Assembly (NCBI RefSeq): GCF_026151205.1
Contig: NC_087073.1
Coordinates: 17,946,837 to 18,010,836 of the forward strand
Direction of reading: 5' to 3'
Length of the DNA stretch: 64,000 nucleotides
Origin: Bolinopsis microptera
Taxonomy: Eukaryota; Ctenophora; Tentaculata; Lobata; Bolinopsidae
Each line of letters opens with the position of its first letter. Within the stretch, counting starts at the first letter, position 1. Positions 1-62,916 of this stretch are shown in pieces. The notes beneath the pieces are model-generated. The model saw only the letters and a program-made list of their open reading frames with translations, searched no databases and was not told where the DNA came from. Position numbers and translations under genes: made by a program.

Positions 1-805
1 CCGACACAGTACACAGTACACACCATAACAACACAATACACTCCTGCACAGTCCACACTCCACGCCCCTCCCCTGAGAAATGCCGATGATTAACTTGCCG
101 ATGATTAACTTGCCTGGGTCGCTCATTTGCTTAAATCGCTGATTGATTACGTTACACGTATCAGTTGTTATCTGTTTTCTGTTGTGTCTCGGAAAACTAG
201 TTAATCTTGATATGTCAACCAACGAGATCTGGAAACATTTCACAAAAGAGGGGGACAACGTGGCCTGCATGCAATGTGACAAGTCTTTTCTCAGCACAAC
301 AGCCAAAAGGTCTTACACTAATCTTTGGTACCACTTGAGAGTTAAACACGGTATAGAAAATGCAGCTGCTAATAATGATAAATCTTCGGCATCCCCCAAA
401 GTCAAGCGACCAAAAAATCAGTCCCCAATAGTATCTTACATCGAAAAGAAAACTCAAGCCGAAATGTATAGCCGTTTAGCGGCTGTGGAGTTCCACTTTG
501 TGTAAGATTGTTATTGTCACTGACTGTTCACTGTAAAGTATATCGGATCTTCACTTTCAATTAATTGACTATTTTGAAATTACGCGTTTACAATTTGTGT
601 ACGATATCTCGGGAATTCATGACCCTCAATCACGGAAGTTATAAATCATGAACGTATGATTAGTTAAGCCACTGAATCGATGGAAAATAAGCTAATTGTT
701 CTGACCAAATTTTATCGCCGATAATTATCGTTATCGCCGATAATTGAAAAATTATTATCGGTTATCGGCGATAAAAAATTGTGGACCGATAATGCAAACC
801 CTAAG
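1..805 (+). mobile_element. hAT (ZBED-type) DNA transposon remnant
   Basis: This is a decayed hAT element, cut at its left by the window edge. It carries a BED zinc-finger reading frame (212-505). Near 712-775 there are clustered subterminal motifs of the type TATCGCCGATAA, in both orientations. The right end, about 786-805, reads CCGATAATGCAAACCCTA, which resembles the inverse of common hAT termini (GGGTTTGC). The catalytic RNase-H-like domain is missing, so this is a non-autonomous or internally deleted copy. The family call rests on the BED finger plus the end. The left terminus and target duplication are not visible. Confidence 0.55.
212..505 (+). CDS. BED-type zinc finger fragment of a hAT transposase
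   Basis: A frame of about 97 codons begins at the methionine of MSTNEIWKHF. It has the BED pattern: an aromatic start (W..F), CMQC as the first zinc pair, a hydrophobic-rich spacer with NLWYHL, then HLRVKH as the histidine pair. A basic stretch follows, and then SPIVSYIEKK, a phrase typical of the linker before the hAT catalytic domain. The frame ends after RLAAVEFHFV, where an intact transposase would continue for roughly 500 residues. It is therefore a truncated gene. BED fingers bind DNA at transposon ends. An in-frame methionine 23 codons earlier exists but adds only a hydrophobic stretch with no family match. Confidence 0.55.
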   Translation: MSTNEIWKHFTKEGDNVACMQCDKSFLSTTAKRSYTNLWYHLRVKHGIENAAANNDKSSASPKVKRPKNQSPIVSYIEKKTQAEMYSRLAAVEFHFV

Positions 806-11700: not shown

Positions 11701-14282
11701 TGTTTTACACTTTCTGTACCGATGGCCTATAAAGCATCAAGGTACTTGTGACCTGCGCTGTGCACATTAACTTATCTAAAAGCTAATTTCATTTTGCACA
11801 GTCCCTACTCAAGGGCTCAAATGGGATGAATTATGAGATAAGTCAAATTACTCAAATACTTCATAGACTCCCATTACATTTTGCGTGTACAGGAGTTGCG
11901 TCTGTGCTAGATATTTGTGTACAAATCTTTGGTATACAAGGCAGGGAAGCAATACACAAGGAGGCGTTTCGTTAATCACGATTCTTCATATAAAATGTTA
12001 CATTGTCGGAAAGTTCTCATGTAAACTAAATGACCTACAGGAGATTCACACACGGGTATAAAGATGATCCTGCTGGCAGCCGAGTCATTCGGTAACATTG
12101 ATCTGCAAAGAGCAGCTTTGAGTCTCATTGTCGTGGTTGTATGTGGACCTTACCGTGCTAGTAACCTCAACTTGGTACGTTTGTCAGCTGTTTTAACTAC
12201 TAAAAATGATATCAAACATCACTTGTTTTGTGGAAGTTTTGTTTGTCCTGTAATTCTGTTTCCCTTAGAGTATGACACCGTCGCAGCATTCAAGAAAGAA
12301 CAGCGCCGACGATGTTATGCACAAAATGTGGTCAGCTATCCGAACTAACAACGGTATAAAAGTCCTCATGTCGCTCCTTCTCACCAAAACCCCTGTAAAC
12401 CATGCTGATGAACTACGAATGGCCGCCTGTAAAGCCTTAAATGGTCTGTGTCGATCGAGGGGCGTTAGGCAGATCGCATCTAAACTGCATCTGATGAGCA
12501 GTGGACAGTTGCTAGCTTTAATGAGAGAGCCAATTCTTCCAGGTTTGTCATTTTTGTCTAATTAATTTGGTCTCAAGTGCCTGAGTCTTGTTGTCTAAGA
12601 TTGATTGAATACTGAATTATCATGAATTGCATCTTGTTCTGCAGAATGAGGATGCAAATTGTGATAATTCAACATCTTAGCGAAAGGAACCTAAACAAAG
12701 CAAAAACGGTCTACTCAATCTAACACAGGAACGCGCCCAAAACATTTTGATGGATTGTCTACGCGTGTGTAACGCGCAATGTCGTAAATTTAAGCGCGCA
12801 ATTCCACGCGGTTTCTTTAATTCAACCTGGAATCTGGATATCAGGTCGGAATTTCCGATGCACTTTAATGTGCCATCAAAGTAATGTAAACTATTTTTTC
12901 CTTACCGATGTATCGTGGCCCATCGTTCATGAAATAAATTATACTTACAATTTAAAATAAATAACCATGCATTGAACCACATGACTTAATATCGGTTATG
13001 TCACAGGTTTTTTTAAATTCATTTGATTTTTCAGAAAACGTGGAGACTCACTCAAAGTTCTGTACATACACAAGATCTCTATTAGAAGTATTGTTCGGGG
13101 TTTCAACAGACAAAGCAGCTAGTGAACCATCCTTGATGAACAAGATGACTAAAGTCGACATAGTATCTAAAACACCTATAACTTTCAATAAAGACGAGAT
13201 TTATAATCTATTGCATTCAAGTTTGCTTGAGTGAGTATGAAATGAAACTTTTTACACTCTTTCGTTTTAAATAAATATATGAATATTGTGAATAAGATAA
13301 AAACGGGCCCCGTCTATTTGATACTAAATTGCAAAAATGTTGTGCAATATTTTACACATTCTACCAAATAACATTTTCCTTATCAAAATCACTTTAATTT
13401 CAGGTGTGGACTAAAAAGCACCGCAAATGCTCTGGTAGATGAAGTAAAACTTAAGTTAGGAAAAGACCTGGCACTGTATCCTGTAAAATCAGAACCTCTA
13501 CTTCCCAGTACGACTCACCTCATGTCCCCTATTACTCCCTGCAAGAAATTAGTTATCCGTAATGCTCGATCTAGAGTAGCCAGCAGCAGCGAGCCGGATA
13601 TATTGCCTTCTAGTCTGCAGTCTCCTACAGCTGCACTTAGATCTATATGCTCCAAGGTAAGGCAATGTTATTTTGTACGGATTTCAGTTAATGAATAAAT
13701 CAATCTGATAAAGGTGATGTTTTTTTGTTTCAAAGATTTGTGACTATTCGCACTATTAAAATGGCTTAATCTCCCCACGGAGTTCAAAAGTTTGCAATCA
13801 AACAAAGGCAGGATTAATTAAGAATTCAAATAGCTGTGAAAGGTTATTACCGTATCCACTACAACAGATCGTATATATGATGAAAATATGACTAGGTACC
13901 ACAGAAGTTATTTGGAGTTAAGGATCACTTGGAGGCATTAGAAGCTCGGACAACAAACCACATGTACCACCCTCCATCACTCAATGACCTGGTCTACAAC
14001 TTTATGAGAGAACAGCATATGATGGTGAGCTATGTTATTTTTTAGGGTTATGTTATTGTTGTAGTCAATTTAGATCGAAAACTTTTCAAACTTACAAATC
14101 ACCAGTGAATAACCATGTCTTCATTTCTCTTTGTTTCCAGTGTGAACATCCCATGTCAATTGTCCCCAAGTTCTCACTGTTCCAAGAGCACAGATGTCCG
14201 GACCCCCAGCCTCAGCTCTACGAAGCTCCTGTAAATGTGGTCGCCAGGCACCAGCAGAGACAATATGGAGTCCCATATGGAG
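8704..14282 (+). CDS. DCAF1: DCAF1 (VprBP), N-terminal part: ARM-like region and LisH
   Basis: DCAF1 is the substrate receptor of CUL4-DDB1 (and EDVP) ubiquitin ligases and acts mainly in the nucleus. Fourteen exons join in phase: 8704-8923, 9121-9293, 9584-9682, 9903-10102, 10237-10375, 10788-10988, 11315-11453, 11569-11697, 12041-12174, 12269-12542, 13035-13230, 13404-13656, 13896-14024, 14141-14282. Family phrases include LLYRWALADREPL, LLSLGEYQE, LLCHKKFASDF, KHTCNAVRQYL, VVCGPYRA, MWSAIRTNNGIKVLMSLL, ACKALNGLCRS and VRQIASKL. A LisH motif spans the 13035/13404 junction (IYNLLHSSLLECGLKSTANA). LNDLVYNFMREQH and FSLFQEHRCPDP match the stretch before the propeller. About 130 residues at the N-terminus, compared with the vertebrate protein, are not found. 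The acceptor at 9,121 has a weak pyrimidine tract and is the least certain. Confidence 0.9.
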
Positions 14283-14392
14283 GTTTGTGTTGAGATGTTT
14301 TATGTTAGATACCACCAAATTCAGTTTATTACGTTACAGTGGCGAATACTGGCTCATTCGTCAACATTATGGGGGGTATCCAACACCAACAA

Positions 14393-14670
14393 AAACCCCT
14401 TTTACCTCAAATTCCCATTTTGGGGTTGGGTTTTTTTGGTTTTTTCCCTCTTTTTTGTAATTTTGTATCCAATTATTTAAAAACCCAAAAATACAAAATA
14501 CATAAAACAAATAAAACATATCATAATTGATAATGGGGATGATGGAGGGTAACATATAACTTGGTCTCAAATGAATGTAGGTGTAAATAATATAAATTCT
14601 AACATTTTTTTGTAATAAAAACCAAAAAATACCCGAAAAAACCCAACTTTACCTCAAATTTCCATTCTTG
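14393..14670. repeat. Inverted repeat flanked by a ~20-bp direct repeat (MITE-like)
   Basis: Within the large DCAF1 intron, GTTGGGTTTTTTTGG near 14,425 faces CCGAAAAAACCCAAC near 14,633. The pair is bracketed by near-identical copies of TTTACCTCAAATTYCCATT at about 14,401 and 14,649. The arrangement resembles a small transposon or a slipped duplication. No coding sequence was seen. Confidence 0.4.
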
Positions 14671-14906
14671 TTTAGCTCTTAACTACAGATTTGTGGCGAA
14701 TAACTTACTCTACACGAACATTTAATTAGTTTGATGGAATATGATATATGGCATATAATTTGGTTAACAATTAAAACATATTCGGTTAAAACTTTAAAAC
14801 TAAATATGCGATTAATTAAGTTTTTAACTAGAACCGGGTCACTGGAACTTCAAACTAACTACTAGAACTAATGATAGAACCTCATAACTCTGTACGATTG
14901 TAATAA

Positions 14907-16532
14907 TTATAGTAAACGCTTACCCTCGTCGCAAATATTATCAAGCCGATAAAATTCTCTTACTCGATTGTCCCAATAGCCAGACCTCTCGTAGTTTTCG
15001 ACTTGATCTTTTAGCAGTTCAAAATCCGGAAAACTGAGCATGTTTTCCAAGAACTGTAACTTGGATCCAAAGTTGCACGTGTTCACAAAAAGCTGACAAG
15101 AGTTAATGTTACGTGAGGCAGTAAGCCCTGTCACCAAGTTAGCGGGGGTAGCTCCACTGATCACCTTCTGTGGGGGTGTTACCTCGCCTGCCAACCGGAA
15201 GGTGCTGTCATGTTCTGACAGAGAGAATCTTTCGTAGAGAACCTCGGATATCCCCCTCACGTTCCGCTTCCGGATTGTCGGGACCAGAGAGGCGTTCTTT
15301 TTGATGACCTGGGCGGTGGTCTCTGCGCTCAGTGCGCTTGCCAGGTCGAGGATATCTGTAGGAACGATCTGTTTGCCACTCATCTCCGAGTTCATGGGAC
15401 AGTAAGGTGGACAGGTAAGACCGTCTGCATCGTGCTTCTTGATGATGCCAGGCAGCTGTGAGGTAGGGAGGTAGACCACGTCCGTTGCATCTGCCAAAAT
15501 CACCTTTATAGCCCCCGCACGAGTTATCCCTAACTTTTCTGTTATTTCTAGAAACTTCCTAGCTGTTCTTACAGCATCTTTGTCGTAATCAACTAGGTTG
15601 ATTGAGGCATTGGTCTCTATGTGGAGTATAATGCCAGTTAAGGGAAACCCTGCTCCAACAAAAGTGAAGTTCTTGTCTGCTAAATTTTTGTATCCAAAAA
15701 GCTCAGGAAACGCTGAAATGAACCTTTCTATTTTCGGCGAATCGGACGACAGGTTGAGAGCTGACCGAAGGATCGGGTTGTTGTTCAGCATATCACCCGA
15801 GGAGGTAAAGTGGTACTTAGCGGCGGAGTTCTGTAGAATGGCTGGAACCTTGAGTAGCTGGAGCTCCGCTGTTACCAACTCGGAGTAGTTCAGAAAGTAA
15901 AGGAAAGGTAGGTCCGTGTAGACTTTAGGGTACTGGAGCTTCAAGGAGCGGGGTAAGTCAACGACCAGTGCTTCAAGCAAAGTAACAGGAGTAACATGTA
16001 TCGTCCTCTCAGTAGCCGTGTTTCTCACCATATCCAGATACTGATCAGGGTAATCATCAGCGATGCTGAAGATGAGATGAAGAGCCTCCTGTTCCATCGC
16101 CTCCTCTCCGTGGATAGCAGTATTTCTCAGCAGAGTAACATGCTCCTGTGCTTCAGAGAACACTGCTGACATCACTCCTTTCAACTTCTGGGGAGAGTAC
16201 CTCATCAGAGTCAAGCCAACTGCGGCACTCAGACAGGTATTTACCAGTTGGCAAGGTGCCAGAGCATATTTAGCAGACCTCTCTGCTCCCATTGAGTCAT
16301 CCCAGAAAACAGGTTCCTTGCTGCACCGTCCTGTTCTCTCCCACTCTTTGTGAGAGCATAAGAATTCCCACCGGGTATGGAGTTTCTTGGAAAGATCTAC
16401 AAACTCCTCTATAACTCCGGCGACTGGTCTTTTCTCAATGGAGATTTTATCCTGATCGAGGATTTCATGAGCCGTCTTTGTAGGGTTCTGTACAACTTCT
16501 ACATTCTCATTTTCTCCAACTGGAAACTTCAT
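14907..16532 (-). CDS. Nicotianamine-synthase-like SAM-dependent enzyme, nested antisense in DCAF1 intron
   Basis: One uninterrupted frame of about 541 codons. The first ATG is at 16,532 and an in-frame TAA lies a few codons upstream. The C-terminal half looks like the nicotianamine synthase / opine-metallophore synthase (CntL) fold. LPFLYFLNYSEL (residues ~208-219) sits where NAS has its PYYxNY stretch. The SAM-binding loop FTFVGAGFPLTGIILH (~289-304) matches FVGSGPxPLTS. The acidic β2 end is LVDYDKDA (~313-320), ILADATDV fits the next strand, and CQLFVNT fits the final strand. In this family the enzyme moves aminobutanoyl groups from SAM onto an amine or amino acid, giving metal chelators. 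The N-terminal ~200 residues exceed the usual ~320-residue NAS and are unrecognised. The residues after the SAM loop diverge, so chemistry is not assured. The 3' end reads GAGGGTAAGCG, a possible donor overlapping the last codons. I found no downstream exon. Confidence 0.65.
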   Translation of the reverse strand: MKFPVGENENVEVVQNPTKTAHEILDQDKISIEKRPVAGVIEEFVDLSKKLHTRWEFLCSHKEWERTGRCSKEPVFWDDSMGAERSAKYALAPCQLVNTCLSAAVGLTLMRYSPQKLKGVMSAVFSEAQEHVTLLRNTAIHGEEAMEQEALHLIFSIADDYPDQYLDMVRNTATERTIHVTPVTLLEALVVDLPRSLKLQYPKVYTDLPFLYFLNYSELVTAELQLLKVPAILQNSAAKYHFTSSGDMLNNNPILRSALNLSSDSPKIERFISAFPELFGYKNLADKNFTFVGAGFPLTGIILHIETNASINLVDYDKDAVRTARKFLEITEKLGITRAGAIKVILADATDVVYLPTSQLPGIIKKHDADGLTCPPYCPMNSEMSGKQIVPTDILDLASALSAETTAQVIKKNASLVPTIRKRNVRGISEVLYERFSLSEHDSTFRLAGEVTPPQKVISGATPANLVTGLTASRNINSCQLFVNTCNFGSKLQFLENMLSFPDFELLKDQVENYERSGYWDNRVREFYRLDNICDEGKRLL

Positions 16533-17656
16533 CCCCACTTACTTGTAGAATATCGGTTGTTATTTGTGCTACGGAGTGAGAACAAAAGACAGCGTATGGA
16601 ATTAATTTAAAACTAGACTATCTATCTATACTATATTTTAAACTTGAGGAAATCTCCCCGGAAACGGCATAAAAGTAGTAAAAATTGGCCAAAAACCGTC
16701 CCTCCGTTGAGAACAATTTCAGCTCGCAAATGGAGTCGAAAACTCGAGATTTTTAGGAAGATTGCAGAAAAAGGATATGTAGCTATTATAGTCATTTTAA
16801 AATTTTGATTTAGACTTTAGATTTTCTATAATTAACGTCGGAAATGAGGATTAATTAGCGACAGAATAATGGCGATATTTCAACAAAATTTTACTGCGTC
16901 GTTGCTACGCAACATCAAAAGATTGCACGTGCAATATGATGCGGTAAAAAGTATCGTCTAGGGCACACCTAGACCTATTTTCGTCATTGTCAAATAAAAT
17001 ACATACTTTCTATAGGACAGAGGTAGATGCCCTAGATGATGAAGAGAAATTAGAACATAACTGATATTTTAAATTTCGAATAAAGCTTTCGACTTGCGGG
17101 TTTCTAGTATGTAATAGATATAATAGACTAAAAACAGATATTTTAATAACACTTTGCTACGAAAGTAAATGGTTTAAATTGAAAATGTTAATAATCACTG
17201 TTCTTAATTTGGTGTGATCGTTATATGATCGCACGGTCTGATAAAAGAAATCGAATCCGCCCAAAACACAACACTCTGAATCTGGCAGTCAATCTACGCT
17301 TTTATCATTTTTCTCGCTATCCTAGGGGACAGTGGATGTATCTATCTTGTAATCTACTCACAGAGTAGTTTTATGAAGTGCTGGCTTGAATCAAGACTCA
17401 AGTCATATCTGCAGCTGCTCTTAACCACATAAAAAACTAGCAAATTTTTGAACAAAACAGAAATTGTGTAGATCCGGCTGTGCAATACTTATACAACAAC
17501 ACAATTAACTGATCGAAATTGAACGTTTAGTAGTATGGCGACTGGAAAACCTAACCGTGCACAACCATCGCAAAATTTTGCTTTCATCAAAATCATAATA
17601 ACTATGTTGGTATTACAGCTGTGCTCGGATTACAATAACCCACTCTATAACCTCAG
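16533..17656. other. Remaining DCAF1 intron, upstream of the nested gene
   Basis: About 1.1 kb of AT-rich intron that must hold the minus-strand promoter of the nested gene. The motif CAAGTAAGT sits just 5' of its ATG and could be a donor of a 5' untranslated exon. A CACGTG lies at about 16,926. No exon was seen. Confidence 0.4.
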
Positions 17657-20600
17657 GTAGAAACGGTCGATACAGGGACTACAAGTACATATTTAGCAAG
17701 TTCAAACCATACTACACGCTGAGAATGGACAGTAGGAACGCAGAGGAATGGGAACATGTTAACTACACCAGCTGTCTAACTTTTTCAGATTATATAGTTG
17801 CGGGCTGCAATACCGGCCAGATCAAGGTGATCACCTAACTTTATTTGTATGTCGAAACTTCAAACGAAATTCATAGTCGTATTGTGATGGAATAGGTACT
17901 CAAATGACCACCAAATGGGATGTCAATGAACGAGCTAATTAACTTAAATTTTTCGGGGAAAAGAAGAGGCCCGGTATGTAGAATAGTTAAAGTGTACTTT
18001 ATCTGTTTTTGGATCAAGAAAATTCAATTGTTCCATAGGATGTGCTATTACCTTATTAGATTTGTTTAGATTGAACTTTCTAAATATCTCTGGAATTCTC
18101 AGGTATACAAGATGACAGAACACCCTCCCTACTATTGTATGCAAACAACTGAGAGTGCCGAATGTGAACCAATTACCTCTCTCGTCCTCTCACAATCTTC
18201 CAAGATGATGGTATCTAACTCAACCGGAGTAAGTCCTCCCTCCATCCCTCCCTCCCTCCCTCCCTCCCTCCCTCCCTCCCTCCCTCCCTCCCTCCCTCCC
18301 TCCCTCCCTCCCTCCCTCCCTCCCTCCCTCCCTCCCTCCCTCCCTCCCTCCTCCCTCCCTCCCTCCCTCCCTCCCTCCTTCCCTCCCTCCCTCCCTCCCC
18401 TCCTTCCTCCCTCCTTCGCTCCTCCCTCCCTCCCTCCCCATGAATACGAAACAACAAACGAAATACTAATTAATACGAACAAAGATTATGGAAACTGCTA
18501 TTTTATTGAGCAATTTGCAAAGTTTTCATGCTTAATGAACCATCCCTCATATTCTCCTAATCAGATAAGATTTGCGACAAATATACTGTGTTTTAATATG
18601 ATCATGTTATAAGCTGCTCTTCTGCACATTAATTTCACCAATTAAGAATTTCTGTGGGTCACACTTTGACACCTGTTCCATATCTTATCTTAGAACTAGA
18701 AGTTCTGCATCACGCTGGAAATCTAACTGGATCTCATTTATACAGAATTCCTACTTAACGTCGAAGAAATTGAATTGATCTTATGAGAAATTATGATATT
18801 TTCAGGCTCCATCTAGTTAAGATTACTTGGTATGCGCGAAATGTGACCAGCTTACATTAGGTTTATAATTAGATCAGCTTATCAAAAGAACGATTACATC
18901 TGGTCGTTTTGGTAGCGGTTATGTACAGAGCTGTTAAATATGAATAATTTATCCTCAATTACCTCGCTGTATTAAAAGTTAAATAAATTACCTAAAATAC
19001 GCGAATAATATGTAAAAAATTCGGCGTTTGGACTACACTTCTTGATATCGCCAATCTTAAGCCATAAACAGTTCCAAGTAATATCTTAAGTCTATCACAG
19101 TTTCTACCGTGTACGTAAACAAGAAGAAGCGTAAAGAAGCGTGGCAATAATTTTTAGAGAAATAATTGTACAAGTAATCTGTGCCAATTAAAAGTTTGTG
19201 GTAGAAAAGCTTCCTGTTTATGCTAAATGAACAAATGCTGACAACGTCACAGATATCACGAATTTATAGACATATTATACAAAAGCACTAAACGAAATTA
19301 TGGTGGAATTCTGACCTCTCCTGTTCGGTTTATAATATACATTCTTCACGTCTTAACATACGGTTCATCTTTAAACTCACTGCCTGAAAGCTTTCTAGGG
19401 AAATTTGTAAATACGTCTCCAACTGATTTAATCACATTTCAGCATAAATGTTCTCAAATTTAAGGTAATTTTGCGAAGTTTGGAACAAATTTAGTGTAAA
19501 AAGATAAGGATTTTAAACAAAAATGGCCTGATTCTGAGCCTCATCAATGGGCTCTATAAAATGTATACCTTTACCACTCAACAGGAGGGCGACATTGACC
19601 GACCAAACAACAGCTGCACAATATGGGGTGTGCGGAGTCCTGGTAGCAGTGAGGCGGGCAACAGTCGGGATCTGCTTGAACACCGCCACGCTCTACAAGG
19701 GGTGGACCATGCAGTCTTCAGGTACTGGTCTGTTCAAGTACAGTTTTGTGATATCAGTATATACCATTTCCAATTTCTTTTCACAGAAGAGTCGGATTGG
19801 TTTAATTTCTATTACCACGAAAAACTCCTTTCAGTTATCTATCGGACGATAAGCTGCTCTGCACAATGCCTGAACACAAGTCCTCTATCGTGGACTGCTA
19901 CACTGGCAAGACCGTCACTGTTCTAGCTAACCCTCCCGGGTGAGTGCTGAGCGTTTTCATTAGCTACTTAAACAGTTGGATTGTTCTGGAGATCATAATT
20001 TTGATAAATTGTTTATTTCAATCTTCTACCTATCCATCACCAAACACTGTATTCAAAGTATCTTTATCTCTGTCACCCAGATCAAACGGCTACTACAAGA
20101 ACCACGCGGTATTCAACTTCACGGACGACCTGGTGTTAAATGACGGTGTACTGTGGGACTACAGGACCCCCAATGCTATCCACAAGTTCGACAAGTTCAA
20201 TAACTTTGTCAGCGGAGTGTTCGCTCCCTCTGGTACGTGTTGTTTTGAAGATCTGCTTCATGTGTGCTACATGAGACATGGCCAATGTTCATTTTTCATT
20301 CTAGAGACTTGAGCGTTTCAATGATATTCAATTGCCGATTTTCACAACTGTAAAATCAGGTATTGACATAATGATAAACACGGAAGTCTGGGATATGCGA
20401 ACTTTCAAGCTTCTCAACACCATTAACTCACTTGATAACTGCCTTTTGAAGTACAACCACTCTAAAGACGTGATGTACGGACGTAAGTACTCATTTCACC
20501 AAACCAAAAGGGTCAATTTACTTCTAGGTAAGGATCATAGTGATAAATATGGATTATTCTCGGTGTTAGTCCAACTAAAACATCCGAATAATAAGGAAGA

Positions 20601-47400: not shown

Positions 47401-48857
47401 CTCAGCTTCATTGTCTACAATTCAGACTTTTTTTCAGGCTTCACTTCTTTAAAAGAGACGAATATTATTAAGTTGAACCCATGATCACAAGACATTTGAA
47501 AGATCCTACCCAGATCTTTCAGTATCGATCATACATTTCAAGAACATTTTAAATTATTGAGCCAATAATCCAGAGAATAAAGAGGATACTAAACTCCTGG
47601 AATGTAGATCTTATCAAGGTGAGCCCACCCTGTCAGATACACAAAGGGGCGGGTTAACTTTGTCACACATATCGAACAAATAAAGCTCGAACTGTCAAAA
47701 GTTAATGTTTAGTTGCGTCATTTTAGCGTGCTGTCATGCCCTAATACATATATTAGGCTATATTAAGGTATAGTGCCGAACAAAACTTTCCCGTAAATCA
47801 CAAGCTATGAATGTAAAGCCTGGACGGTGTAGTACAGACGATACAAATTTGATTAATTACTTGCACCTCAATTTGAAAATGTATTCGTTTTGAGCGAGCA
47901 TTTTATCAGGATGGAGTTAAACAAATGACGACGAGAATGAGTTCGGATTTACCGAGAGGCCAGCTGCTGCAAACCATTTCGATCAAATAGGAGCAAAGTT
48001 TAAAAAAATGAAAATCAAATTAAAAGTATTTTAATTTGTAAGTGAAAATGTCTTTGAAAAGAAAACTAACCTTTGAGAAGGATATTCTGTTGAGACTGGT
48101 CTGATAGCACGCTGCATCCTGGTATCGTCATCTTTAGAGTTTCTAGAGCCGTCTTCAGCCCATCCCTCCTCTTCTGTTCGCAAATCTTGTGCATCTGCCT
48201 CCTACTGGCCCTTTGTTGATTTATAACCTCCTCCTCGACCCCCACCACTCGAGCTCGAGCTGCAGCCGCTGCCACCGCCCCAGCAGCCGCTAGATCAGCT
48301 GACATGGTGTCCCGGGGGTGCTGAAACTGAGAGGTCTGAATGGGAGTGTAGCCCGGACTGAGATCTGAGTGGTTGATGAGGGAGGAGAGGGCGACGCCGG
48401 TGAAGTGCTGGGAACTGATCTGAGAGTTGTACATGTCGTATCTGGAGTGGGAGGTGGGGTTGTACTGGGCTGGGTAGTGGGTGTTGGTGGCACAGCTGCC
48501 TGGACTCTGGAAGTAGTGCATGGTAGGCGGGGTGAAGAAGGCTGGACTGTGGAGGACTGATGATGGGTAAGCGTTGGGTGGTTGCTCCGGGTCACTCTTT
48601 ATGGGGACTGGAGAAGCATGTGGAGCTGCTGATTGCTGGCTGCATCTCAGGAAGTTGTCCTGCTCTGTTTTGGATGGCGGACTCGGCAAGATGTCAGTTG
48701 TCGAGCTGACCTCAGCGAGGTTGACTTCCAAGTTCCGGGAGACAATGGAAGGGTTGTTTGGTGTAGCGATGTTTCCTAAGTTTGGCACATTGTAGTCAGC
48801 AAAATTAGCAAATTTGCTATGCATGGCCGTGCTGTCAGCTGCTGACGTTAGCAACAT
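41493..48857 (-). CDS. bHLH-leucine-zipper transcription factor, Mlx/Mondo-like
   Basis: Four exons in phase: 48071-48857 (ATG), 42807-42856, 41705-41793, 41493-41571 (TGA). The predicted protein has 334 residues. The N-terminal ~200 residues are Ser/Pro/Tyr-rich and look like an activation region, followed by an Ala-rich run. The basic region RRQMHKICEQKRRDGLK has His, Glu and Arg at positions 5, 9 and 13, the set that reads CACGTG. The EQKRRD signature is that of Mlx and Mondo. Helix 1 is in exon 1, and helix 2 (AYQFVCDLLRKQQANK) in the 50-nt exon 2. A heptad zipper (VIEELQSMREKNDILQSEID) fills exon 3. The tail SSVPMNNVPTN is short. The glucose-sensing MCR domain of Mondo is absent. Intron 1 is ~5.2 kb and rich in CACGTG. 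USF- or TFE-type assignments are less likely. Confidence 0.8.
42033..42053. repeat. (CA)n microsatellite
   Basis: About ten CA units within the bHLHZip intron. Confidence 0.85.
44250..44753 (+). other. Two short adjacent open frames, unassigned
   Basis: Frames of 100 codons (44,250-44,552) and 65 codons (44,556-44,753) lie nearly head to tail inside the antisense bHLHZip intron. Neither has a recognised motif. The pair might be a decayed mobile element, an unrelated small gene or chance. Confidence 0.15.
45586..45608. promoter_or_regulatory. CACGTG plus CCAAT composite module
   Basis: GTCACGTGAG at 45,584 is followed 12 bp after the E-box by ACCAATGAGG. This is nearly the same spacing and flanks as the 41.1-kb module, and lies in the bHLHZip intron. 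Confidence 0.4.
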
Positions 48858-61734: not shown

Positions 61735-62916
61735 TTATTCTTGCCCGCTCCAACACTTGAAATTGCTCGTCTGGTGGAACCACTTAATTCGAAGGATTCT
61801 CCTCAAACAGTTTTTATGGAAAACTTCGAAGCGATGTAGTTGCTTTGAAGTAGTGTTCCAGACTTCGCTTCCATAAAGTAATATTGTTAGAACCGCTGCA
61901 ACATATATCCGTATTTTGGTGTTAGTTTGGATATTGCGATTCTTCCAAATATTACCGAGCTGATTGAATGCTCCTGAGGCTTTCTGGATCCGTGCAGATA
62001 AGTCCCGGTCAATAGTCCCATCACTTGATATAATCGACCCAAGGTAAGTGAAGTTGCTGACTTGCTGGATAGCCGTGTCTCCTACTGTAATGTCCACCGT
62101 TGATGCTTCAGTATACGGCCTCTGTGACGTATTCTTACCGATGGCCATAACCTCTGTTTCCTTCGCATTGATTCTGAGGCCAGCCTGAGCCGCATACTTG
62201 CATAAAAGATCAGTCGTCTCCTGGAGACCGTCCTTGGTGTTGTCCATGATAGCCAAATCATCTGCATAGTCAGTATCCAAGACGACTGTATCCTGATCAA
62301 AGCTGGTGGTAGCTCTCTGCAGTACTGCCCCGTGTGACAACACTTTGTTATCCTCAGCCCGCTGCGCAGGCAGGTTGATGCAAACATTAAAGATAGGTGG
62401 ACCCTGAATATCCCCCTGCCCAGAGCCAGATGTAACGTCAAACCAATCTGAGAGCTCACCATTATGTCTGACAGCGCTGACGGTGCCGCAAAAGAATGCT
62501 TGCATTATGCGAATGTATTTACAAGGCAAGCCATAATGACTGAAAGCTTTCCAGATAAACTCCCGATTAAGTGAATCGAATGCAGCTTTAAAGTCAACAA
62601 AATTTATGTACAGGGGGAGGTTAAACTCAATGCTGTTGTGAATAATAGTACGGAGTGAAAAAATCTGATCAATGCAAGACCTGTTTTTCCTGAACCCGCA
62701 CTGATTCTCTCGGAGCAGTTCTTCAAGCCCCGCATTCATCCGTCGCAACACTATTATCTGATAGAGTTTTGATGCCGTGGAGCGTAGGGTTATGCCCCTG
62801 TTGTTCGAGCAGAATGATGTATCACCCTTTTTCGGGACAATAACAATGATACCCTTAACCCAATCCTCTGGCACATTCTCCGTCTCCCAAACACGTGCAA
62901 ACAGTTTCTCAAGCAT
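61735..62916 (-). CDS. Reverse transcriptase fragment of the LINE
   Basis: A 393-codon frame containing most RT motifs in order: VKGIIVIVPKKGD, NNRGITLRSTASKLY, NQCGFRKNRSCIDQI, FVDFKAAFDSL, a SGSGQGDIQGPP variant of the usual RQGC.LSP, the catalytic TDYADDLAIMD, and GLRINAKETEVM. The YADD aspartates are kept. It copies element RNA at the nicked target. The frame shifts after KWFH, beyond which the correct frame reads DEQFQVLERARINPVI. Its clade is probably RTE- or CR1-like and was not decided. Confidence 0.8.
   Translation of the reverse strand: MLEKLFARVWETENVPEDWVKGIIVIVPKKGDTSFCSNNRGITLRSTASKLYQIIVLRRMNAGLEELLRENQCGFRKNRSCIDQIFSLRTIIHNSIEFNLPLYINFVDFKAAFDSLNREFIWKAFSHYGLPCKYIRIMQAFFCGTVSAVRHNGELSDWFDVTSGSGQGDIQGPPIFNVCINLPAQRAEDNKVLSHGAVLQRATTSFDQDTVVLDTDYADDLAIMDNTKDGLQETTDLLCKYAAQAGLRINAKETEVMAIGKNTSQRPYTEASTVDITVGDTAIQQVSNFTYLGSIISSDGTIDRDLSARIQKASGAFNQLGNIWKNRNIQTNTKIRIYVAAVLTILLYGSEVWNTTSKQLHRFEVFHKNCLRRILRIKWFHQTSNFKCWSGQE

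Follow-up and report, generated by a model that had tools for sequence, protein, structure and literature searches.

The window analysed here, a stretch of 64,000 nucleotides from the ctenophore Bolinopsis microptera, carries on its minus strand a single-exon gene (14907..16532) for a protein of 541 aa. The protein is probably a divergent member of the superfamily of nicotianamine synthase (NAS) and CntL, the Rossmann-fold 3-amino-3-carboxypropyl (aminobutyrate) transferases, and one of two intact ctenophore paralogs. As judged from sequence comparison, the superfamily relationship of its core is well supported, but the same cannot be said of its inclusion among the nicotianamine synthases proper.

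A single-exon gene with an intact paralog

The frame begins with an ATG at 16532 and runs on the minus strand of the window with zero internal stops, and the unbroken frame of about 541 codons described in an earlier note on this DNA was thus confirmed at 541 residues. It is the longest ORF in the 64-kb window, and the chance probability of a stop-free run of 541 codons at the base composition of the ORF is about 3.5e-13. The stretch 14907-16532 is a real gene, more than an ORF, because it has an intact paralog from which it differs at synonymous sites near saturation and by few amino acid changes. This paralog, which lies on another contig of the same genome (G000:C12:8471932-8473491; 264.65 Mb in 232 contigs were searched), is a single open frame of 537 aa and is 61% identical to the window protein (E 1.3e-198). 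Over the 524 aligned codons of the two paralogs, pS is 0.76, which is saturated and beyond correction, against a pN of 0.24. The core (aligned codons 160-480) has a dN of 0.22 and a dS of about 2.8; with a dN of 0.42 in the first 160 aligned codons, the core is the most constrained part. The protein is under purifying selection. A candidate third paralog on contig C5 (E 1.55) was rejected, its translation having stops nearby and no NAS motifs being seen in it; the match is probably fortuitous.

The coding region has no introns, and the single frame of the paralog agrees with this, which bears out the earlier description of an intron-poor copy. A second exon beyond the donor-like GAGG/GTAAGC near 14922 was considered and rejected, because the paralog ends a few residues past the same point without being spliced; on the same ground, 14907 is accepted as the true end of the frame.

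Position in a DCAF1 intron and origin of the gene

The gene lies antisense in an intron of DCAF1, a nesting that had been noticed before and is confirmed by the exon structure of the host gene. Both DCAF1 sequences listed in a PDB search are matched by the exon at 12272-12562 (plus strand; E 3e-21), and the exons at 14141-14282 and from 17657 onwards join in frame across an intron of 3374 bases (14283..17656, plus strand), inside which the NAS-like gene is read from the minus strand. In the ctenophore Hormiphora, passages of a published account count 2357 nested intronic genes, of which many run parallel to their host. Because nesting is so common in Hormiphora, the one ctenophore genome with such counts, we regard it as ordinary and not as evidence for horizontal transfer. 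We see no sign that the position in DCAF1 serves a function.

Rather than an old animal gene, the locus could represent a recent horizontal gain from a prokaryote, a plant or a fungus, or the contig could be a contaminant. This alternative, which concerns the origin of the gene and not its function, is in our view quite improbable. It would fit the lack of introns in the coding region, and excerpts of the literature describe the published metazoan NAS, that of Bemisia tabaci, as a plant-derived transfer. However, the gene is situated between DCAF1 exons on a contig of 23 Mb, and the ORF has a GC content of 47%, close to the 43-53% of three DCAF1 exon stretches and unlike the 33% in the rest of the intron, a level as expected for a settled host gene. 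The saturation of synonymous sites between two copies that lie on different contigs further implies that the family is not new to this genome, unless the copies came separately. The scans of plasmids, phages, viral contigs and prokaryote contigs, which are of low power and reach close relatives only, found no close relative; in a control for this power, even a fragment of MtNAS, the thermonicotianamine synthase of Methanothermobacter, had no match to a relative in the prokaryote contigs. The matches in a further plasmid search were only the Halocatena NAS gene itself and its twin.

Layout of the protein

The protein, whose parts are all read from the minus strand, opens with a region of 174 residues (1-174; 16011..16532) that is less conserved between the paralogs and in which the Pfam search of the unaltered protein recognised no domain. 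A PHROGs search gave weak matches to unknowns alone, the best of them (E 0.0083) on residues 1-37. A novel N-terminal region of about 200 residues had been claimed; the novelty stands in so far as Pfam recognises no domain there, but the excess comes to only about 106 residues when the 186 residues before E187 are compared with the 80 before Glu81 of MtNAS.

The core that follows falls into three segments separated by two inserts, which the earlier note had not mentioned. Segment 1 (residues 175-235; 15828..16010), supported by alignments, Pfam and the PDB profile match, carries the candidate catalytic residues E187 and Y216. Insert 1 (residues 236-286; 15675..15827) separates the tyrosine motif from the SAM loop and is missing from the three NAS compared. 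Segment 2 (residues 287-352; 15477..15674), to which the NCBIfam, PDB and hhalign matches extend, contains the putative Rossmann SAM loop FTFVGAGFPLTG and motif I, FTFVGAG (residues 289-295; 15648..15668). Insert 2 (residues 353-389; 15366..15476) is located further downstream in the domain, and segment 3 (residues 390-470; 15123..15365), supported by hhalign, alignment and Pfam, has R423, L432-Y433, F445 and P453. A C-terminal tail (residues 471-541; 14910..15122) completes the protein. The boundaries of both lineage-specific inserts are cuts that we set from an alignment of five sequences, the two paralogs and three NAS. The Rossmann loop, with FTFVGAG at 289-295, and the aromatic stretch FLYFLNY at 210-216 are found where they had been placed by eye.

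Two short patterns outside the core segments are kept in both paralogs. The pair C374-x3-C378 in insert 2 might form a metal site. The CNxS motif in the tail of plant NAS has a form of its own in grasses. The C-terminal tail of the window protein contains NTCNFGSK (residues 484-491; 15060-15083, minus strand), which resembles the CNxS motif of the autoinhibitory tail of plant NAS as given in passages on these enzymes, a resemblance that may be due to chance.

Searches with the unaltered proteins

The unaltered window protein matched neither the NAS model of Pfam (PF03059) at E<=10 nor any other Pfam model, and a PF03059 profile search of its own genome gave no match. The unaltered paralog scored 13.8 bits (E 0.036) against Pfam NAS over residues 206-235, which include the tyrosine motif, and did not reach the cut-off of 27.1. 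The sole NCBIfam match of the window protein was CntL, at 11.7 bits (E 0.12), where the equivalog cut-off is 350 bits; the paralog had no match to the CntL model at E<=1. In the PDB, phmmer with the window protein returned only three matches, all of them MtNAS entries (E 0.4-0.58), and a profile of the two paralogs returned nine matches at E<=10 among 177,635 sequences, the first seven being CntL or MtNAS (E 0.28-0.40) and the remaining two a 5' nucleotidase family protein (E 0.82).

For profile-profile comparison, the reference NAS profile consisted of three sequences: Halocatena NAS, from a plasmid record; barley NAS1, in a provisional sequence that was checked with Pfam; and MtNAS, whose sequence and residue numbering were taken from the letters printed in the PDB match. 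The profile of the two paralogs was aligned to it by hhalign with a score of 46.3-46.6 over 130 columns (residues 288-461), a score that none of 300 column shuffles reached (maximum 24.2) and that compares with 12.4 for the reversed profile. Single targets were also ranked, namely the three NAS together with 68 CDS out of the 81 that three E. coli stretches have in their annotation (71 sequences; those left out were mostly short or cut). MtNAS ranked first, with the sole long alignment among the top four; uvrB ranked second (score 27.5 over 29 columns), above barley NAS in third place (24 columns) and Halocatena NAS in fourth (43 columns). Five of the E. coli targets are enzymes of the SAM-dependent methyltransferase type (cmoA, cmoB, cheR, bioC and ubiG), and the best of these came ninth of the 71. 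Taking the shuffles together with the PDB search with trimmed cores described below, a collinear profile similarity from the SAM loop to the last strand exceeds chance.

Searches with the trimmed cores

Pfam misses the unaltered protein because the two inserts split the NAS domain, and inserts within the domain can thus hide NAS-like genes from Pfam. After the inserts were removed, the window core scored 28.1 bits (E 1.7e-6) and the paralog core 30.0 bits (E 4.3e-7) against the Pfam NAS cut-off of 27.1, covering positions 96-263 of the 276 in the profile, although these scores lean towards NAS because the cuts were chosen after the NAS alignment had been seen. The search with the Pfam NAS profile, which had been proposed as a check, therefore gave no match for the unaltered protein but passed for both cores. 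When the PDB was searched with a profile of the trimmed cores, the top match was MtNAS (E 1.3e-4 over 155 residues), followed by CntL (E 0.12), and seven of its eight matches at E<=10 among the 177,635 sequences were MtNAS or CntL. The likeness to NAS and CntL proposed in the earlier note is accordingly right at the superfamily level.

Over 183 aligned residues, the core is 32.2% identical to MtNAS, within the range of known NAS pairs there (28.6-34.2%), whereas its identity to Halocatena NAS (25.1%) and to the provisional barley NAS1 sequence (24.5%) lies under that range. In the alignment of the two paralogs with the three NAS, 21 of 174 gap-free columns are invariant, and six positions are invariant in the three NAS but different in both paralogs (K198, F296, S399, A400, S429 and S459).

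That the protein is an ordinary SAM-dependent methyltransferase, unrelated to NAS and with a Rossmann loop alike by chance, appears very improbable. The unaltered window protein does lack a Pfam NAS match, and the trimmed window core matches Methyltransf_31 at E 0.13. This is, however, the only rival Pfam match of the trimmed cores, and placement by profile in an ordinary methyltransferase family, the outcome that had been named as speaking against the NAS proposal, did not occur. Furthermore, MtNAS and CntL chains rank first among all PDB sequences, the alignment starts at the motif of the catalytic Tyr and extends past the loop as far as the last strand, and none of the five unaltered E. coli enzymes named above matches PF03059 at E<=10.

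Active-site residues and proposed reaction

According to excerpts of a review, Glu81 and Tyr107 of MtNAS deprotonate the acceptor amine, and their equivalents in Arabidopsis NAS1 (AtNAS1), E77 and Y106, have been reported as required in passages on that enzyme. Y216 (codon 15885..15887, minus strand) aligns with the catalytic Tyr in MAFFT at two settings and in the PDB profile alignment, and it is invariant in the five sequences; the hhalign match stops short of it. The candidate equivalent of the catalytic Glu is E187 (codon 15972..15974, minus strand), a likely assignment but one that depends on the alignment: its spacing to Y216 is 29, as between E77 and Y106 of AtNAS1 (26 in MtNAS), and the paralog keeps the Glu (E183), but the MAFFT column of the catalytic Glu holds K198. 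A motif I lacking the acidic residue of methyltransferases is a trait of NAS, as stated in part of PMC1282579, and FTFVGAG has no acidic residue. Both paralogs retain this feature of motif I as well as Y216 and the glycine loop.

Plant E73 and the VGMD motif have both been reported, in passages on AtNAS1, as needed by that enzyme. The position of E73 is taken by V183 in the window protein and by Thr in the paralog on a mapping that assumes E187 to be the equivalent of E77, and the position of VGMD is taken by L401-S402 and a gap, where the provisional barley sequence has VGMA. Since neither E73 nor VGMD is conserved on this mapping, nicotianamine itself seems unlikely as the product, and 'nicotianamine synthase' in the strict sense is a name that our alignment does not support.

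The reaction that we propose is modelled on the known enzymes. SAM would most likely be bound in the FVGAGFPLTG loop; Y216, and probably also E187, would deprotonate an amine; and the aminobutyrate part of SAM would be moved onto this amine, in a simpler transfer as in MtNAS or CntL. The product may be a small amino acid with several carboxylates and thus a likely metal ligand. We tentatively suggest, as a possibility that could well prove wrong, that ctenophores make a small metal chelator of their own, other than nicotianamine, through a deeply diverged, animal-specific NAS branch that is set apart by its N-terminal region and by two conserved inserts. If true, a metallophore pathway would be native to animals.

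It is also conceivable, though unlikely, that catalysis has been lost or changed on the NAS fold and that the protein acts as a SAM sensor, as a scaffold or as an ordinary methyltransferase on a NAS-like frame. The uncertainty of the catalytic Glu, with K198 in its MAFFT column, the six NAS-invariant positions that are changed in both paralogs, and the N-terminal excess together with the two inserts would be in agreement with this, and the plant NAS relatives AhNAS5 and Medicago NAS2 showed no detectable nicotianamine synthesis, according to excerpts of the published work. However, the features that both paralogs retain (Y216, the glycine loop and a motif I without an acidic residue) and the stronger constraint on the core than on the first 160 codons speak against this reading.

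Families that might act together with such a transferase were sought in the genome by a search that reads exons singly, by which split genes could be missed. The OPT family (PF03169; YSL/OPT transporters) had no matches in the one genome searched exon by exon, where two of 14 controls matched, and the opine dehydrogenase families PF10100 and PF02317 had none in the same kind of search, in which their controls were silent too, so that this second result carries little weight.

Other features of the window and the genome

Elsewhere in the window, a frame at 61735-62916 (minus strand) encodes a reverse transcriptase (RVT_1, E 4e-23) and is probably a piece of a retroelement, and a BED zinc finger frame at 143-505 (plus strand; E 1.1e-5) is perhaps part of a hAT-like transposon. 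A long frame at 48066-48857 (minus strand) ends in the start of a basic helix-loop-helix domain (E 1.3e-4, profile positions 1-29 of 53) and should continue in another exon, because the HLH domain is truncated there. A long CCCT simple repeat at 18233-18440 lies downstream of the exon of DCAF1 at 17657.

The genome also contains at least 32 matches to ionotropic glutamate receptors, several of them in open frames of at least 900 codons. One such frame has ML032222a, which we take from its name to be a gene of Mnemiopsis leidyi, as its best PDB match (E 3e-69), narrowly ahead of kainate receptors, while another matches kainate receptors first and ML032222a further down. The ligand-binding domain of ML032222a matches 51 places in the genome, the best with 75% and 73% identity.

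Comparison with known systems

The NAS family is so far hardly known from animals, and the cases discussed here are those of a whitefly and of Folsomia, a springtail. In the collection of papers searched, none combined nicotianamine and ctenophores, and by a term count, nicotianamine is absent from the main text of a survey of horizontal gene transfer in Mnemiopsis (PMC6005172). As far as the excerpts of a 2025 paper go, no metazoan other than the whitefly Bemisia tabaci, whose copy is plant-derived, has a NAS gene integrated in its genome. Passages of a 2019 paper state that NAS function had never been shown in animals, that a gene bank entry exists for a putative Folsomia gene, and that a zinc complex from a slug fits nicotianamine by mass. 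The papers cited include PMC12454661, PMC10248798, PMC6934671, PMC10491745, PMC8527503, PMC10232365 and PMC11797021.

The closest comparison is with MtNAS (PDB 3fpe, 3fpg and 3o31), to which the trimmed core is collinear over 155 MtNAS residues. The two share the catalytic Tyr (Tyr107 and Y216), a non-acidic motif I and the C-terminal R...LY...F...P pattern. Unlike MtNAS, the ctenophore protein has an excess of about 106 residues ahead of the catalytic region, two inserts (51 and 37 residues) and a 71-residue tail, and the equivalent of Glu81 is uncertain in it. CntL, the D-histidine aminobutanoyltransferase (PDB 7c9k and 7c7m), is matched weakly just before and through the SAM loop, but with 11.7 bits the protein stays far from the cut-off of 350 for that family. 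Plant NAS (PF03059) resembles the ctenophore protein in the FPYYxNY motif, here FLYFLNY, and in the VGxG loop, and the trimmed cores pass the PF03059 cut-off, whereas E73 and VGMD are not kept on our mapping and core identity to the provisional barley NAS1 sequence is 24.5%.

The reported animal NAS, BtNAS of Bemisia tabaci and the Folsomia candida GenBank entry, likewise come from animal genomes and belong to the NAS family according to their authors, as far as the passages cited describe them. By the same description, BtNAS is of the plant type and originated in plants, which sets it apart from the present gene, far as the latter is from plant NAS. A NAS-like gene that has diverged, been duplicated and come under selection in a ctenophore would widen the picture of NAS in animals, and it would offer a definite candidate with which chelator synthesis by an animal lineage can be tested.
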